NCBI RefSeq assembly: GCF_001553685.1
Contig: NZ_CP014264.1
Coordinates: forward strand, 1,434,001-1,498,000
Reading direction: 5' to 3'
DNA length: 64,000 nt
From: Streptococcus sp. oral taxon 431
GTDB taxonomy: Bacteria; Bacillota; Bacilli; Lactobacillales; Streptococcaceae
Position 1 is the stretch's first letter. Each line of letters opens with the position of its first letter. The notes under the pieces were generated by a model. The model saw only the letters and a list, made by a program, of their open reading frames with translations. It did not search any database and was not told where the DNA came from. Made by a program: the position numbers and the translations under genes. Below, piece after piece: positions 16,973 to 48,166 of the stretch.

Positions 16973-17001
16973 TAAAAAATCAGTCACTAGGACCGATTTT
17001 T
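16973..17001 (-). terminator. Terminator overlapping the parC stop
   Basis: On the minus strand AAAAATCGGTC pairs with GACTGATTTTTT (one mismatch), ending in a T run. The stem begins in the parC stop codon. Confidence 0.7.
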
Positions 17002-19477
17002 AATTTTCTTTGATTTCTTTAAAGATTTCTTTGAGATAAGCATCAAAAACTTCTTCATCAGAAATGCTATCTGAAATGAAGCTTCCATTGCTTGTGCGTT
17101 CCGATAGATTCAAATATTGTAGGATTGCTTCGTAAGTCGTTCCATTATTTGATTGGATGACAAGCGTTTGCTCGCCATCTTCTACTTCTGTACTAAAGAG
17201 ATCTCCAATAAATCCTTGCTCTGATACTGCACCAGCAAGGAAGACACGATGTGGTTTACTCTTCAATTCTCTAAGGACTTGAAGACCACGATTAGCACGA
17301 CTGGTTGCTGGAATTTCCTCAATCGAAACGCGCTTAAGACTTCCACGATGCGTCAAAAGATAGAAAGATGAAGTGTTGCAGATAAAGGCTGCTTGTATCA
17401 CATCATCTGCTTTGAGATTCATGGCTTTGACACCTGCAGCTTTGGCACCGATAACTGGCACTTCTTCGATGTTAAAGCGGAGGGCATAACCGTTTCGACT
17501 AATCAAGAGAACATCATCCAGTTTAATCGGAGCTACTGCTACAATCTGATCAGTATTATCTTTCAACTTAGCATATTTGACAGACTTAGAGCGATAGGTT
17601 CTCCATGGAGAGAATTCTTTGCGTTCGACACGTTTGATTTGACCAAGGCGGGTCGCTGCAAAGTAGGTTGTCGCATCTTCAAACTGATCCACAACTTCTA
17701 CGTATAGCACTTCTTCATTGGTTTCAAAGTTTGTAATCGTTTGGCTCAAGTGCTCCCCGATATCCTTCCAACGAATATCTGCTAATTCATGGACAGGACG
17801 GTAGATTACATTTCCTAGTGTTGTAAAGATTAAGAGATGTTGAGTTGTCTTGACAGATTGGATAAATAGTAATCGGTCATCATCCCGTTTACCAATCTCT
17901 TCAAGTGTTGAAGCTGCAAAAGAACGTGGACTAGTACGTTTAATGTAGCCTGCTTTAGTTACGCTGACGTATGTATCTTCTTCAGAAATCAAACTAGCTG
18001 TATCAATCTCAATGACTTTTGCTGTGTCTTCTAAAGAACTCAAACGAGGTGTCGCAAATTTCTTCTTAACCTCACGAAGTTCTTTCTTCATGAGATTATA
18101 CATAGTCCTTTCGTCACCAATGATTGCTGCCAGCATAGCAATTTTTTCGCGAAGTTCTGCTTCTTCTTCCTGCAAGACAACTACGTCTGTATTGGTCAAA
18201 CGGTATAGTTGCAAGGTAACAATAGCTTCAGCCTGCTCTTCAGTAAAATCATAACTGACCTTGAGGTTCTCTTTGGCATCAGCCTTGTTCTCAGAAGCAC
18301 GGATAAGAGCAATGACTTCATCTAAAATAGAGATGACACGAATCAAACCTTCCACGATATGGAGACGTTTTTCAGCCTTTTCCTTGTCAAAGCGAGAACG
18401 TGCCAAGATGACCTCACGACGGTGGGCAATATAGCTAGATAAGATAGGCACAATTCCAACCTGACGAGGGGTGAAATTGTCAATCGCTACCATGTTGAAG
18501 TTGTAGTTGATTTGCAAGTCAGTATACTTGAAAAGATAGTTGAGAACAAGCTCAGTGTTCGCATCTTTCTTGAGTTCGATAGCAATACGAAGACCGTCAC
18601 GGTCAGACTCATCTCGAACTTCAGCGATACCTGCCACCTTATTATTGACACGGACTTCATCTATTTTCTTGACCAAGTTAGCCTTATTAATCTCATAGGG
18701 AATCTCAGTGATAACGATTTGCTCCTTACCACCTTTCAGTTTCTCGATTTCAGTCTTAGAACGAACAACCACGCGCCCTTTACCAGTTTCATAGGCCTTT
18801 TTGATTTCGTCTCGTCCTTGAATAATGGCTCCTGTAGGGAAGTCTGGTCCAGGCAAGAATTCCATGAGCTTATCAACCTTGGCAGTTGGGTGATCAATCA
18901 TGTAGACTGTCGCATCGATAACCTCAGCCAAATTATGCGGTGGAATATCTGTGGCATACCCAGCTGAAATCCCAGTTGAACCATTGACCAAAAGATTCGG
19001 AAAAGCTGCTGGCAAGACAGTTGGCTCTTTCTCTGTATCGTCAAAGTTCCAAGCAAAGGGAACTGTCTTTTTCTCGATATCTTGAAGGAGATAGCCTGCA
19101 ATCTCAGACAAACGAGCCTCTGTATAACGCATTGCCGCAGGCGGATCTCCGTCCATCGAACCATTATTACCGTGCATTTCAACTAGAATCTCACGGTTTT
19201 TCCAGTCCTGAGACATACGAACCATGGCGTCATAGATAGAAGAATCCCCGTGTGGGTGGAAATTCCCCATGATATTTCCGACAGACTTAGCCGACTTACG
19301 GTAGCTCTTGTCAAAAGTATTGCCATCCTTATTCATAGAATAAAGAATACGGCGTTGAACCGGCTTCAATCCATCCCGAATGTCTGGCAAAGCCCGGTCT
19401 TGAATGATGTATTTGGAGTAGCGACCAAAGCGCTCTCCCATGATGTCCTCTAAGGACATGTTTTGGATATTACTCAT
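17000..19477 (-). CDS. parC: DNA topoisomerase IV subunit A
   Basis: 825 residues from the ATG at 19477, matching the usual ParC N-terminus; an in-frame ATG 27 bases upstream is less likely. The winged-helix/tower domain has the catalytic tyrosine in AMRYTEARLSE, followed by the coiled-coil dimer gate and the C-terminal beta-pinwheel. ParC decatenates daughter chromosomes with ParE. In the quinolone-resistance region Ser-79 and Asp-83 (GDSSIYDAM) are wild type. No Shine-Dalgarno stands in front of the ATG; instead a structured repeat lies between AAAGGAG (about 19583-19589) and the start. Confidence 0.97.
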   Translation of the reverse strand: MSNIQNMSLEDIMGERFGRYSKYIIQDRALPDIRDGLKPVQRRILYSMNKDGNTFDKSYRKSAKSVGNIMGNFHPHGDSSIYDAMVRMSQDWKNREILVEMHGNNGSMDGDPPAAMRYTEARLSEIAGYLLQDIEKKTVPFAWNFDDTEKEPTVLPAAFPNLLVNGSTGISAGYATDIPPHNLAEVIDATVYMIDHPTAKVDKLMEFLPGPDFPTGAIIQGRDEIKKAYETGKGRVVVRSKTEIEKLKGGKEQIVITEIPYEINKANLVKKIDEVRVNNKVAGIAEVRDESDRDGLRIAIELKKDANTELVLNYLFKYTDLQINYNFNMVAIDNFTPRQVGIVPILSSYIAHRREVILARSRFDKEKAEKRLHIVEGLIRVISILDEVIALIRASENKADAKENLKVSYDFTEEQAEAIVTLQLYRLTNTDVVVLQEEEAELREKIAMLAAIIGDERTMYNLMKKELREVKKKFATPRLSSLEDTAKVIEIDTASLISEEDTYVSVTKAGYIKRTSPRSFAASTLEEIGKRDDDRLLFIQSVKTTQHLLIFTTLGNVIYRPVHELADIRWKDIGEHLSQTITNFETNEEVLYVEVVDQFEDATTYFAATRLGQIKRVERKEFSPWRTYRSKSVKYAKLKDNTDQIVAVAPIKLDDVLLISRNGYALRFNIEEVPVIGAKAAGVKAMNLKADDVIQAAFICNTSSFYLLTHRGSLKRVSIEEIPATSRANRGLQVLRELKSKPHRVFLAGAVSEQGFIGDLFSTEVEDGEQTLVIQSNNGTTYEAILQYLNLSERTSNGSFISDSISDEEVFDAYLKEIFKEIKEN

Positions 19478-19483
19478 ATAGGA

Positions 19484-19664
19484 TACAAAGCCCGTAAAAT
19501 GCAAAGTGAAAATAGGAAATTCTTACAGTGAGCGATGCTCACAAGAGAATTTATCTTTTTCACACAACATTTAGGGCGTGTTCAACTCCTTTCAAAGAAT
19601 GTAGAGTAGTTTTTATGGAAAAGTTGTTCAGTCACTATAAATAACCAAACGACCCTTTCTGTGG
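19484..19664 (-). repeat. Structured repeat element in the parC leader
   Basis: On the minus strand a long helix spans 19506-19563: GTGAAAA/TTTTCAC, conserved internal loop AGATA/TCCTA, AAATTC/GAATTT, then an apical stem GTGAGC/GCTCAC with loop ATC. An outer pairing GCCC...GGGC encloses it. The 3' edge reads TTTGTATCCTAT directly before the parC ATG. TATAAT at 19671-19676 is a candidate -10 that would start the transcript at the 5' edge of the element. The same loops with different stems occur in front of deoD. Confidence 0.6.
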
Positions 19665-39465: not shown

Positions 39466-40176
39466 TTAGTCAGCAATCAATGTTTCCAAACCAACCTTCA
39501 TCATATCAGTGAAGGTGTTTTGACGTTCTTCTGCAGTTGTATCTTCATCTGGATTAACCAAACTATCTGAAATAGTCATGATAGCAAGGGCATCAACATG
39601 ATGTTGAGCTGCAAGATAATACAGCGCTGCCGCTTCCATTTCCACCGCTTTTACTCCCCACTTACCAAGCTCAATGTTCTTATCACCATAGTTAGAATAG
39701 AAAACGTCTGATGATAAGACATTTCCGACGTGAGTAGTCATACCAAGGTCTTTGGCAATGTGGTAAGCCTTGTCTAAAAGATCAAAGCTAGCAATTTGTG
39801 GGAAATCGTATTGAGGCCAATCGTTGCGGATGATATTTGAATTGGTAGCAGCAGCCTGTGCTAAAACCAATTCACGGACATGAACATCCTCATTCAAAGA
39901 GCCCGCAGTTCCAACACGAATCAATTTTTTCACTCCGTAGTCAACAATTAACTCACGCGCATAGATAGAGATGGATGGCATTCCCATCCCAGTTCCCATG
40001 ACAGATACACGGTGACCCTTGTAAGTTCCAGTGTAACCAAACATGTTACGCACTTCGTTAAAGCAAACAGCATCTTCTAAAAAGTTCTCAGCGATAAATT
40101 TCGCACGAAGAGGATCTCCAGGAAGAAGAATTTTATCAGCAATTTCACCCTGCTTAGCAGCAATATGGATAGACAT
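39466..40176 (-). CDS. deoD: Purine-nucleoside phosphorylase, DeoD type
   Basis: 236 residues, hexameric trimer-of-dimers family with [34 protein letters not shown] and [15 protein letters not shown]. It cleaves purine (deoxy)nucleosides, including adenosine, to base and sugar-1-phosphate, complementing PunA. No Shine-Dalgarno sequence lies before the ATG; a structured repeat ends 12 bases upstream of it and carries GAAAGG at its far edge. Confidence 0.96.
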
Positions 40177-40183
40177 AATTTAT

Positions 40184-40315
40184 GATACAAAGAGCGACCA
40201 GAAAGCGACTGAAAATTAGGAATCTGACGAGAAATCCTGATTTCTCAGTTAGATTATCTATTTTCCGAGCTTTCCGCTCGTGTTCAAATTAGAACACACG
40301 CTCTACCTTTCTTTT
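40184..40315 (-). repeat. Structured repeat, copy C, directly upstream of deoD
   Basis: Minus strand order: AAAGAAAGG, outer stem AGAGCG (pairs with CGCTCT near 40190-40196), hairpin GTGTTC/GAACAC (40280-40297), then a helix 40211-40265: GAAAAT/ATTTTC, internal loop AGATA/TCCTA, AATCT/AGATT and apical GAGAAAT/ATTTCTC. The 3' edge reads TTTGTATCATAAATT before the deoD ATG. Confidence 0.65.
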
Positions 40316-40322
40316 TTATTAA

Positions 40323-40458
40323 TAGGACAGGCGACAGAGAACAAAGTAAAAATAGGAAACTGACGACGCATCACAGATGCTAGAAAGTTTATCTTTTTTA
40401 CACAATTCTCCGCCCGTATTCAGTTCAGCTAATACGGTTAACCCATCCTTTCTGTGTG
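40323..40458 (-). repeat. Structured repeat, copy B
   Basis: Minus strand: CAGAAAGG, outer stem GGATGGG/CCTGTCC (with G-U pairs), hairpin CCGTATT/AATACGG, then a helix 40346-40401: GTAAAAA/TTTTTAC, internal loop AGATA/TCCTA, AAACT/AGTTT and apical GCATC/GATGC. Same architecture and loops as copy C, different stem sequences. Confidence 0.65.
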
Positions 40459-40467
40459 TATTTTTTG

Positions 40468-40521
40468 TTTAGAAAAGTTTTCCGCTCGTGTTCAATTAGA
40501 ACACACGCTCAACCTTTCTTT
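40468..40521 (-). repeat. Structured repeat, truncated copy A
   Basis: Only the 5' part is present: AAAGAAAGG, GAGCG and the GTGTTC/GAACAC hairpin followed by GAGCGGAAAA, nearly identical to copy C. The long helix is missing. The rest of the 408-base gap (40522-40584) is AT-rich and shows nothing else I can support. Confidence 0.6.
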
Positions 40522-45248: not shown

Positions 45249-46178
45249 TTATTTAACCATGTCAGGATCGTAGTCATAAAATCCTGTGTCAAGGAAACGA
45301 TTTTGGGGATGGAGTTTACGGACTTGCTCGTCCAACAAGAAGGCTTGGTCATGCGTAATGCTTCCCTCTTGAATCAAGCTACGGGCTTGGATGAAGAGTT
45401 TTGCAATCTCAACAAAATCTTGACCTGGAGTATAAAGTCCTTCTAGTTTCCAATGAGTGAAACCATGCTCTACCAACTCTGGCAATTTTGTCATCAAATC
45501 GAGGTCGTTATTGGCAAAAATGTGAGTTCCATGATTATCTTCAAAAATTGAGTAGTGACTATCTGGATCACTAGGCTCTGCTAAGAAGAGGTCGCGTTGA
45601 CGTGTTTTTTCATCATCAATCTGAGTAAAATTATAGTAATTCTGCAGGAGTGGACGCTTAGAGTGGTGGATGACACTAGCACCGTAAACTAAAACTTCAG
45701 CAGGAATTTCCAAAATTTCAGGCATTTTAAAGAGTTCAGCTGATGGAATTTCACGAGCCAATACTGCCTCAGAAGCGCCAGCCTTTTGTCCCCAGAAATT
45801 AATCTGACGGCTACTAGTTACCATGGTTGAGGCATCATAGATGGTTTTAAAAGAATAACCATCACGATTGACAACATAAAAGACACCCGCATCTCCAACA
45901 GTAATGTAGTCTGTTTTAATTTCTTCCAAGAAATCAAGGAAGGGTTTGATACGATCCATCATATCCTGATGCATAAGAGCATTGACCGCTACGATCAATT
46001 CCTTACCTGCATCATGAACCAGACCAGCGATGGTTCTCAGTTCATCATAAGAAAAAGTCTTTGGTAGGCGAAGTCCAAAATCTTTCTCACCGACATAGAT
46101 GCGGTCAACTCCCGCCTCTAGTAATTCTTTTACTTGTTCAATGCTTTCAGCAGTTGCTGTAATAATAATCTTTTCCAT
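45249..46178 (-). CDS. U32 family peptidase-like protein
   Basis: 309 residues with the N-terminal TIM-like fold of the peptidase U32 (YegQ/YhbU/RlhA) family: LLEAGVDRIYVGEKDFGLR, AVNALMHQDM and the block EVLVYGASVIHHSKRPLLQNY. Relatives act in RNA hydroxylation, ubiquinone synthesis or collagen cleavage, so the reaction cannot be assigned. The ATG is seven bases from a TGGTATAAT box and has no ribosome site, suggesting a leaderless mRNA. Confidence 0.88.
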   Translation of the reverse strand: MEKIIITATAESIEQVKELLEAGVDRIYVGEKDFGLRLPKTFSYDELRTIAGLVHDAGKELIVAVNALMHQDMMDRIKPFLDFLEEIKTDYITVGDAGVFYVVNRDGYSFKTIYDASTMVTSSRQINFWGQKAGASEAVLAREIPSAELFKMPEILEIPAEVLVYGASVIHHSKRPLLQNYYNFTQIDDEKTRQRDLFLAEPSDPDSHYSIFEDNHGTHIFANNDLDLMTKLPELVEHGFTHWKLEGLYTPGQDFVEIAKLFIQARSLIQEGSITHDQAFLLDEQVRKLHPQNRFLDTGFYDYDPDMVK

Positions 46179-46261: not shown

Positions 46262-46369
46262 TATACTCAATGAAAATCAAAGAGCAAACTAGGAAGCTAG
46301 CCGCAGGCTGTACTTGAGTACGGCAAGGTGAAGCTGACGTGGTTTGAATTTGATTTTCGAAGAGTATTA
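46262..46369. repeat. BOX element (boxA-boxC type)
   Basis: A 107-base repeat beginning TATACTCAATGAAAATCAAA, containing GAAGCTAGCCGCAGGCTG and GTACTTGAGTACGGCAAGG (boxA) and GAAGCTGACGTGGTTTGAA (boxC), and ending GATTTTCGAAGAGTATTA. The ends are inverted repeats (ATACTC/GAGTAT). This is the pneumococcal BOX repeat, here without a boxB unit. It lies between the U32 promoter and the ABC transporter terminator. Confidence 0.93.
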
Positions 46370-46416: not shown

Positions 46417-47097
46417 TTATGCTTGTATTTCTTCAACAAGGTGACCATCATTCATGATAAAGACACGGTCCACCTTATCAAGAAGTCTGGTGTCATGCGT
46501 AATCATCACTACTCCTCTTCCCTGCTCATGGGCAATTGATGCAAGCATATCCGTCACTTGGTAGGCTCTTTGGGTATCAAGACTGGCTGTTGGTTCGTCA
46601 GCAAGTACGATGCTAGGATTGTTATAGAGAGCTCTGGCAATTGCTGCACGTTGACGTTCTCCACCTGACAAGGCCTTTGGATAATGATTTTGAACTTTGT
46701 TCAGATCCAACAAATCAAATAACTGTTGACGGTCACTTTTCGTAGATTTATCTTTATCTAGTCGATCAATTAGGTCTAATTGTTCCTTAACGGTTAAAAA
46801 TGGAATCAGATTTGAAGCCTGTAAAATAAAACCAAATTCCTTAAACCGAAGATCTGTTTTCTCTTTTTCAGTCAAATCACCAGTTTCTGTTCCCTTAACT
46901 AAAATCTTACCACCTGAAGGCTCCTGCAACTGTCCTAAGGTGGTCAAAAAGGTTGTTTTACCAGATCCAGAAGGACCAACTATGGCAACAAATTCACCAG
47001 CATTTAGTTGAAAGTTCGTCTCGTGTAGGGCAACGACTTTCATATTTCCTTCTCCGTAGCTTTTCGTCACTTGCTTCATTTCTATCAATGGTGTCAT
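46417..47097 (-). CDS. ABC exporter ATPase, HrtA/MacB type
   Basis: 226 residues from the ATG at 47097 (AAGGAG upstream). Walker A GPSGSGKTT, signature LSGGERQRAAIARALY, Walker B IVLADEPTASLDT. LolD/MacB-type ATPase that works with an FtsX-domain permease. Its start overlaps the end of the permease gene. The pair resembles HrtBA (heme efflux) in size and order, but antimicrobial-peptide or other mechanotransmission exporters cannot be excluded. Confidence 0.88.
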   Translation of the reverse strand: MTPLIEMKQVTKSYGEGNMKVVALHETNFQLNAGEFVAIVGPSGSGKTTFLTTLGQLQEPSGGKILVKGTETGDLTEKEKTDLRFKEFGFILQASNLIPFLTVKEQLDLIDRLDKDKSTKSDRQQLFDLLDLNKVQNHYPKALSGGERQRAAIARALYNNPSIVLADEPTASLDTQRAYQVTDMLASIAHEQGRGVVMITHDTRLLDKVDRVFIMNDGHLVEEIQA

Positions 47098-47110
47098 ATA
47101 AGTCTCCTTA

Positions 47111-48166
47111 TCATTCTGCAATAGCCGTTATAGGATCAACTTTGAGCAAACGAGGGAGAGAAATCACTCCTCCAAGTAGTGCCATCAAACAAATTCCCAA
47201 ACTCAATCCTAAATATGCTAACCAACTTGGATAGAAAATGAAGGTTGCAGGTAGAACAAGGATAACACCTACAATCGCCAATAAGGCTAGACCGATCCCA
47301 AAACCTGCCAGCAATATAATTTGACAAAAAAGCGACCAAACAATGGTTCTAGCCTGAATTCCCTGGGCTCTCATAATCCCATAGAGGCCTAGTTTTTGAA
47401 TGGTAATAATATAAATAAAAATACCAATAATCAGGCCTGATATGATAATCATCGCTAAAATCATTCCTGAAAATACGTTTACTTGAGGTGTATAGCCCGG
47501 AATATGGGCAATCATGTTTTGAATGGTTAATTGACTTAAACCGTCCGCGGATAACTGAGCATCATTTTTTAAGACCAAGGCAGAAATAGCGCGACCTGCA
47601 TTCAGACTACCTTGCAAGGTCCAATAGCTAGTCAAATTTGTAAATACTACAGGTTCTGTAAAAAATTTATTCCCTTTCGTAAGTCCAACGATGGTATAAG
47701 AATTTTCACTTCCATTCAGTTGAATGACATCGCCTAGTTTAATTCCATAGTTTTCTAAAGACTGATCCACGACAACTTCATTGTCACTTTCTGGGTAATG
47801 GCCCTCAATCAAGGAAGGAGAGATAAAACTGTTCCAATCCTGTGCAAAAATAGAGATGTTTACCTTCTCACTATCATTGACGAGATTTGTCACCGCAAAC
47901 ATATACCCCAAAGGTACTACATCTTTTGAAACCTGATCCTTATAATTCTTTTCTGGAATAAAGGATGCTGTCAGATTATCATTTGCATAATCTGATAAAA
48001 CAATCCCTGTCGCTTTCCAATTATCCACGGCTGCTCTATTATTTCTAACGAGCCCCAGAGCTAAACTTGTCATAAAAAAGACCATAAACGCTATTAGAAA
48101 GATCGTCGTTAAAATCAAACTATAACGAAGTTTATTTTTTAAAATTTCCTTGATTGCAAGATACAC
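47111..48166 (-). CDS. ABC exporter permease, HrtB/DevC-like, GTG start
   Basis: 351 residues, GTG start at 48166 with AAAGGAG upstream. One N-terminal helix (about 16-40), an extracellular MacB-like core domain (about 45-230) and three C-terminal helices forming an FtsX domain. The total length equals HrtB of staphylococci and streptococci, which with HrtA removes excess heme. No HssRS-like regulator lies next to it. Assignment to heme export is tentative; the DevC/YbbP family is the safe call. Confidence 0.82.
   Translation of the reverse strand: MYLAIKEILKNKLRYSLILTTIFLIAFMVFFMTSLALGLVRNNRAAVDNWKATGIVLSDYANDNLTASFIPEKNYKDQVSKDVVPLGYMFAVTNLVNDSEKVNISIFAQDWNSFISPSLIEGHYPESDNEVVVDQSLENYGIKLGDVIQLNGSENSYTIVGLTKGNKFFTEPVVFTNLTSYWTLQGSLNAGRAISALVLKNDAQLSADGLSQLTIQNMIAHIPGYTPQVNVFSGMILAMIIISGLIIGIFIYIITIQKLGLYGIMRAQGIQARTIVWSLFCQIILLAGFGIGLALLAIVGVILVLPATFIFYPSWLAYLGLSLGICLMALLGGVISLPRLLKVDPITAIAE

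Follow-up and report, generated by a model that had tools for sequence, protein, structure and literature searches.

The repeats that precede deoD and parC in this streptococcal genome are probably members of a MITE-like family of mobile, non-autonomous DNA hairpins, which lie in many ribosome-binding sites and which, looped out of the mRNA, would let a Shine-Dalgarno upstream of them serve the ATG on their other side. The window (the whole stretch of 64,000 nucleotides that was analysed, and to which all coordinates refer) contains the following features around these copies.

17000..19477, minus strand: parC, topoisomerase IV subunit A (NCBIfam TIGR01061, 1269 bits)
19482..19583, minus strand: parC copy, full (cmsearch 87.4 bits, E 1.2e-18), with 4 nt from its 3' end to the parC ATG
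19586..19593, minus strand: GAAAGGAG, Shine-Dalgarno-like, upstream of the parC copy by 2 nt
39466..40176, minus strand: deoD, purine-nucleoside phosphorylase (NCBIfam TIGR00107, 292 bits)
40184..40285, minus strand: copy C, full (cmsearch 80.5 bits, E 5.8e-17), its 3' end TATC 7 nt before the deoD ATG
40280..40297, minus strand: small hairpin GTGTTC-TAATTT-GAACAC (computed fold), whose 3' arm coincides with the 5' end of copy C
40306..40312, minus strand: AGAAAGG, Shine-Dalgarno-like, upstream of copy C by 20 nt
40321..40421, minus strand: copy B, full, tandem partner upstream of copy C (cmsearch 64.3 bits, E 5.3e-13)
40446..40453, minus strand: AGAAAGGA before copy B, read from the sequence
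about 40471..40519, minus strand: remnant A, with AGAAAGG and two facing 5' ends (GTGTTC..GAACAC) and without the AGATA/TCCTA loop

The fold of the element and its covariation

Each copy is a single hairpin of ca. 102 nt, as seen in the alignment of five copies from this genome, from which covariance model R1 was built. At the base there is a terminal stem, GA-NNN/NNN-A-TC, with a bulged A (it reads GAACAC.../...TTTGTATC), then an 11-pair stem and a second internal loop; towards the top follow a run of A-T pairs, a 4x4 loop AGAT/CCTA and a stem of four pairs, topped by an apical hairpin that is variable. The element measures ca. 102-107 bp, or ca. 112-122 bp with its spacer. The sequence-only reading had described tandem copies before deoD in which B, C and the parC copy share the loop strands AGATA and TCCTA while P1, P2 and the apical stem vary without losing their pairing, and the loop strands, like every stem listed, are indeed found on the minus strand as written. 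B and C are full copies (64.3 and 80.5 bits), but the third copy, A, is only a remnant, for which covariance model R2 gave no call at E ≤ 1. The structure drawn at that time was right in its upper half and missed the outer half, i.e., the 11-pair stem and the terminal stem with the bulged A.

The region of copy C is predicted to be stable (folding z of -4.1 for a stretch of 142 nt), and the interval between this copy and the deoD ATG holds no Shine-Dalgarno. The terminal stem of copy C and the small hairpin at 40280..40297 both need the 5' end of that copy, and the two are therefore in competition. Similar small hairpins (GTTTAGTT..AACTGAAC or GTGTTC..GAACAC), again with a 3' arm that is the 5' arm of the element, occur upstream at three other loci (L144, L181 and L184). 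Each resembles what would be left of an inverted partner and, competing with the terminal stem, could serve as a switch.

Covariation was scored on two sets of aligned copies. In the first (144 distinct rows among 150 copies taken from named and viral contigs; model R2 was built from it) the score was 0.581, vs. 0.148 (sd 0.005) when the letters of the 3' side were shuffled and at most 0.115 with slid partners, and there were changes on both sides in 32 of 34 pairs. The second set (150 copies, 136 distinct, the source copies of R1 included) gave 0.673 vs. 0.168 shuffled, and at most 0.148 with slid partners. The two sets have only six sequences in common, adding up to 274 distinct copies; since a model of the same structure served to find and align both, the second repeats the result in sequence but does not test the structure from scratch. 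AGAT and CCTA were both in the expected halves in 237 of the 274 distinct copies. These figures bear out the earlier proposal that the compensatory changes reflect a selected structure with a fixed internal loop. The terminal stem covaries as well (92.1% of cells paired in the first set, 91.6% in the second), and constitutes the terminal inverted repeats of a MITE.

In a selected RNA fold, G-U pairs are expected to be common and A-C pairs rare. Over 29 pairs and 274 distinct copies (7775 cells) we counted 7512 Watson-Crick pairs (96.6%), 72 G-U and 78 A-C, leaving aside five of the 34 pairs that were judged unreal or loosely aligned; the excess of G-U over A-C that marks the covarying stems of a structured RNA is not seen in these counts, while with all 34 pairs kept the first set has 98 G-U vs. 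50 A-C. A single junction pair (17-208) accounts for 36 of these 98 G-U and for 74 unpaired rows in that set. Separated by gene orientation, the first set has 24 G-U vs. 18 A-C in sense copies, 7 vs. 7 in antisense copies and 13 vs. 13 in undecided ones. As a control, 11 distinct tRNAs from the same DNA gave 17 G-U vs. 1 A-C, under a crude indexing that put 28 of 187 cells outside both the standard pairs and A-C. Alignment to a model favours standard pairs, so that G-U counts would be raised by it and not lowered. As G-U is no commoner than A-C, complementarity is apparently kept as it would be in DNA. The sequence-only reading had left the choice between an RNA and a DNA hairpin open; the lack of a G-U excess, the presence of copies in both orientations and the prophage insertion described below favour DNA, although the folded RNA may matter where the element lies between Shine-Dalgarno and ATG.

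That reading had also matched the repeats to no known family, and Rfam agrees in having no match for the element. At the gathering cut-off the window yields two tRNAs only, and 20 other loci yield three unrelated families, all outside the element; the deoD leader searched at E ≤ 10 gives five matches, none of them close to the gathering score.

Distribution and movement

Model matches were found in 143 of 147 Streptococcus genomes, from one to at least 27 per genome, and the genome studied here has 17 copies at E < 1e-5 (R1). A covariance-model search had been proposed with the absence of further copies as the refuting outcome, and the result was clearly the opposite. The Enterococcaceae-like genus g19 alone, positive in all of its 22 genomes, provides 1689 matches at E ≤ 1e-3 (2 to 149 per genome, with at most 150 candidates scored in each); one g19 locus (L110) carries an Enterococcus sRNA family. 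Among Lactobacillales 104 of 395 genomes were positive at E ≤ 1e-3, belonging to 10 of 80 genera, some with one weak match alone. Among Bacilli there were 32 of 398, including one genome from another family (G711) with 16 matches, and in the phylum-wide set 2 of 398, both of the genus Streptococcus. Match numbers are lower bounds, as at most 27 (Streptococcus), 10 (Lactobacillales), 9 (Bacilli) and 9 (phylum) candidates were scored per genome under stricter filters. A pattern scan of named genomes retrieved at least 119 stretches, and among the matches listed were Streptococcus, Enterococcus, one Lactococcus and one Bacillota bin. Across the copies from Streptococcus, enterococci, other Lactobacillales and G711 the stem sequences vary freely; the loop and its A/T flanks are kept. 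The streptococcal genomes without a model match were G004, G005, G018 and G141 (of the 147) and G353 (in the Lactobacillales survey). All five are small genomes, useful for tracing the missing enzyme, and G018 retains degraded element ends at dnaJ (L370).

A prophage fragment (L248) provides an insertion of 113 bp, equal to the array period, with the form AATT-[102 bp]-TTTCTTG. It lies between 'aaagcagg' and 'agaaagg', in the gap between the end of the terminase gene and the next, scaffold-like gene. Part of the L248 stretch is matched by 86 phage records, the best 30 of the 86 covering at most 84% of it, and in all seven of the records that were read the site is empty (...aaagcagg agaaagg...ATG or nearly so) and without a model match. 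In this the element is short and non-coding and moves, or has moved, as a unit, like a MITE. No target-site duplication was seen at this site, the sole clean empty one. Two IMG/VR contigs (L246 and L247), which have no relatives among the phage records, carry tandem copies of enterococcal type within phage gene clusters, the last copy standing before AGGAGG and a start codon. Searches with a copy of our dnaJ type found no match among phages, and neither this copy nor one enterococcal copy had a match among plasmids.

Occupancy of homologous sites is also variable. In the gap between rpsN and rpsH, compared in 40 genomes chosen towards the more distant of 96, the model found no copy in 20, one in seven, two in 11 and three in two; the shortest copy-free gaps were those of L284, L285 and L305. 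At three of the gaps that lack the element (L262, L306 and L316) a different long imperfect hairpin, read by eye, fills the spot after rpsN, with inner strands resembling TCGTYGTT/GCCTAGA and stems that vary between species. It may represent another family of such hairpins. The copy beside the ATG of dnaJ can be of another type in spite of 99% identity to our own gene over 400 bp (L320 and L321). When 36 dnaJ copies were assigned to the nearest copy of this genome (16 of its 17 copies were used, and close relatives make up many of the 36 genomes), the nearest was that of deoD for 17, of dnaJ for 8 (itself included), of carB for 7 and others for 4.

The only enzyme sought was the Y1 transposase (PF01797), which was absent from our genome and from G274, G381, G155, G169 and G273, though all of them are copy-rich; it was present in 12 of 24 genomes. 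A RAYT/IS200 mobiliser residing in the same genome is consequently not required. As the mobilising enzyme was not found, the mechanism of movement is something that we infer. The probable recognition target would be the folded single strand, or a cruciform, with its non-complementary AGAT/CCTA loop. Recognition of the fold by the enzyme would explain why the stems are free to change in sequence as long as they remain Watson-Crick complementary, and why the loop is kept.

Copies in intergenic gaps and ribosome-binding sites

The copies settle in intergenic gaps, where they build tandem arrays. Of 175 matches, 150 were aligned and grouped into 100 clusters, only one of which is intragenic; 84 have two neighbours, the others lacking a neighbour in the DNA fetched. 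Among the 84, 49 are sense to both neighbours, 22 antisense to both, eight divergent and five convergent. The end adjoining a gene is the 3' end of the element. In the sense clusters the longest frame begins 4-7 nt beyond the element in 11 of the 49 and 17-28 nt beyond it in 17, and 16 of the 22 antisense clusters are found 0-6 nt from the opposing stop codon, the genes opposing the copies including rpsN, rpsH, rpsO and rpsG. Neighbouring copies not more than 150 bp apart were tandem in 91 of 92 cases (two aligned sets); in the rpsN-rpsH gap eight neighbouring pairs were tandem and seven had their 5' ends facing. Of 156 streptococcal-type copies, 77 come after another copy, 16 after a Shine-Dalgarno-like stretch within 3-6 nt and 63 after neither.

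Many copies occupy a ribosome-binding site, some immediately preceding the Shine-Dalgarno and others separating it from the ATG, and the two situations can be told apart by distance. When the ATG is 10-44 nt past the element (33 N-termini), the Shine-Dalgarno lies between the two in 26 and upstream in three, and of the seven rows with no Shine-Dalgarno between, some appear to be frames that arose by chance opposite a gene. Where the distance from the element to the ATG is 3-7 nt (20 distinct N-termini), the Shine-Dalgarno is upstream, within 45 nt, in 18 and between in none. These 20 represent about 13 gene families, some recognised by eye, of which 11 keep the upstream Shine-Dalgarno. By way of comparison, seven or more matching nucleotides occurred in 33 of 3000 random windows of 45 nt, and 21.7% of 736 ordinary frames reach seven at the best of up to six starts. 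The class with the ATG at 3-7 nt has split sites, with a Shine-Dalgarno upstream of the structure and none from there to the AUG; the genes involved include deoD, parC, dnaJ, prmA, carB, purE, purB, alaS and dnaK.

The dnaJ gene gives the longest series. Out of 50 loci, 36 are filled, 12 unfilled by pattern (two of them, L370 and L373, showing degraded element ends) and two without a start found. The 8-nt sequence AGAAAGGA is kept 3 to 37 nt before the element in 35 of the 36 filled loci (the 36th is masked), and in none does it follow the element. The retention of an upstream Shine-Dalgarno makes sense if the ribosome still uses it across the hairpin, and judging from this conservation the split-site genes probably initiate in that way. 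The hairpin would be looped out in the mRNA and the upstream Shine-Dalgarno, which is strong and kept, would serve the ATG. In the computed folds of two common dnaJ leaders the Shine-Dalgarno comes to 7 nt from the ATG, with the element alone in one (L026) and together with an upstream remnant in the other (L320). In L320 and similar leaders this remnant, ACAAAGAGCG..TTC, precedes the element and can pair with its 3' end into a three-way junction. Its appearance is that of an inverted copy that has lost its stem and kept the base.

When spacing set by the fold was computed as a general rule, natural elements did no better than shuffled ones. In 18 gene groups, 8 of 18 fell within 4-12 nt vs. 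78 of 216 shuffled, with a mean probability of 0.39 vs. 0.40, and on 62 of 65 leaders, many of them orthologues, 39 of 62 vs. 304 of 620 shuffled came within 12 nt.

Alternative explanations and known elements

Could these repeats instead be cis-regulatory RNAs, i.e., a riboswitch or a protein-binding leader that controls deoD, parC, dnaJ, carB and others? Strong covariation with a conserved loop would be expected of such RNAs, many copies sit in housekeeping leaders (the split-site genes listed above, from deoD to dnaK), and the competing 5' hairpin might be the switch. We consider this quite unlikely all the same, as a leader regulator is weakened by the presence of both orientations, by the swapping of subtypes at one gene and by G-U pairs being equal to A-C. 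The leader copies have no G-U excess (G-U vs. A-C is 11 vs. 8 in class i and 7 vs. 16 in class ii), 22 of the 84 two-neighbour clusters are antisense to both genes, copies abut the opposing stop codons of rpsN, rpsH, rpsO and rpsG, near relatives hold different subtypes at the same gene and the genes affected belong to no evident common pathway. The abutting of stop codons (16 of 22 antisense clusters at 0-6 nt) is rather what one would expect of a transcript stabiliser or weak terminator of the REP/BIME type, shaping mRNA decay or mRNA ends on either strand, and the stability of the hairpin (z of -4.1 for the 142-nt stretch with copy C) and the many enterococcal copies examined that end in GC followed by TTTT point in the same direction. 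Such a role has no need of a conserved asymmetric loop, present as AGAT plus CCTA in 237 of 274 copies, and the streptococcal copies examined are mostly followed by TTA or TTG, without a T run; it appears unlikely to us.

Watson-Crick covariation might also arise from palindrome correction without selection. The element could then be a passive palindrome, an old insertion whose arms are homogenised by template switching and whose fold nothing recognises, and a covariation that is nearly Watson-Crick-only, with G-U equal to A-C, is what this would produce. But homogenisation should remove mismatched loops, and they are kept in the copies of Streptococcus, enterococci, other Lactobacillales and G711; besides, movement is seen in the prophage insertion and in the swaps at single loci, and we regard this origin as very unlikely. 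A mobile hairpin remains our preferred reading. In its widest form, which we put forward tentatively and think could well prove wrong, a selfish hairpin spread across the Lactobacillales, its folded strand recognised by a recombinase in the manner of attC, would have colonised the ribosome-binding sites of core genes, where its fold in the mRNA would be a looped-out spacer with initiation across more than 100 nt.

Several known systems resemble the element in part. In the attC sites of integrons the stem sequence varies, the fold and the unpaired bases are kept, and the sites form arrays. The element shares with them the variable stems, the kept fold and loop and the arrays, and differs in that core genes lie between the copies examined. 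EFAR elements are mostly 170 bp and L-shaped. EFAR is described as an enterococcal MITE (PMC3733652) and Efa-1 of E. faecalis as a 163-bp intergenic repeat with 65 copies and two adjacent stem-loops (PMC2267715). Compared by description only, the accounts given in these sources state no covarying conserved loop, no streptococcal spread and no split ribosome-binding site, and on this same footing EFAR may be a relative or a branch of the present family. BOX, RUP and SPRITE are, like our element, short structured intergenic repeats of streptococci, SPRITE being an 18-bp duplex with a T-rich tract, but they are described as almost confined to S. pneumoniae and S. mitis, with BOX relatives in S. 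suis (PMC3049150), whereas the element is in 143 of 147 Streptococcus genomes. The earlier statement that the repeats are not BOX holds, in that the boxA core (sought with up to three mismatches) is absent from the element. Its sole match in the window is at 46333-46349 (minus strand), with one mismatch and a chance expectation of 0.14 at up to three mismatches, and from it a BOX element may lie between the open reading frames at 45249-46178 and 46417-47121.

The REP/BIME sequences associated with RAYT transposases are described as palindromic and intergenic, beside coding regions and in arrays, with a length of 20-40 bp and a GTAG or CGTC tag (PMC3733652); the element, in contrast, is ca. 105 bp long and free in its stem sequence, and the Y1 transposase that should accompany REP/RAYT is missing from the copy-rich genomes named above, our own among them. 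For initiation across a structure the reported parallel is that of T4 genes 38 and 25, in which a structure between Shine-Dalgarno and AUG cuts the spacing from 22 to 5 and from 27 to 11 nt (PMC3014915). Those are stretches of 22-27 nt in a phage, and here it is a repeat of more than 100 nt in bacterial housekeeping genes. We found no streptococcal element of this kind described in the literature covered, from which subscription papers are mostly absent, and a search by sequence letters gave nothing that bore on it, judging from titles and the opening lines of abstracts. An order-wide family with covariation at the DNA level, a conserved loop and split sites is thus apparently undescribed in the literature searched.

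If this reading is correct, a single family would account for many of the structured gaps of streptococcal and enterococcal genomes, one that sequence-based repeat finders have missed, and its covariation would mislead pipelines designed to discover RNAs. The leaders of dnaJ, purE and alaS would be natural replicated experiments on how large a hairpin a ribosome can cross on its way from the Shine-Dalgarno to the start codon, and the element itself would point to an enzyme that acts on folded DNA.
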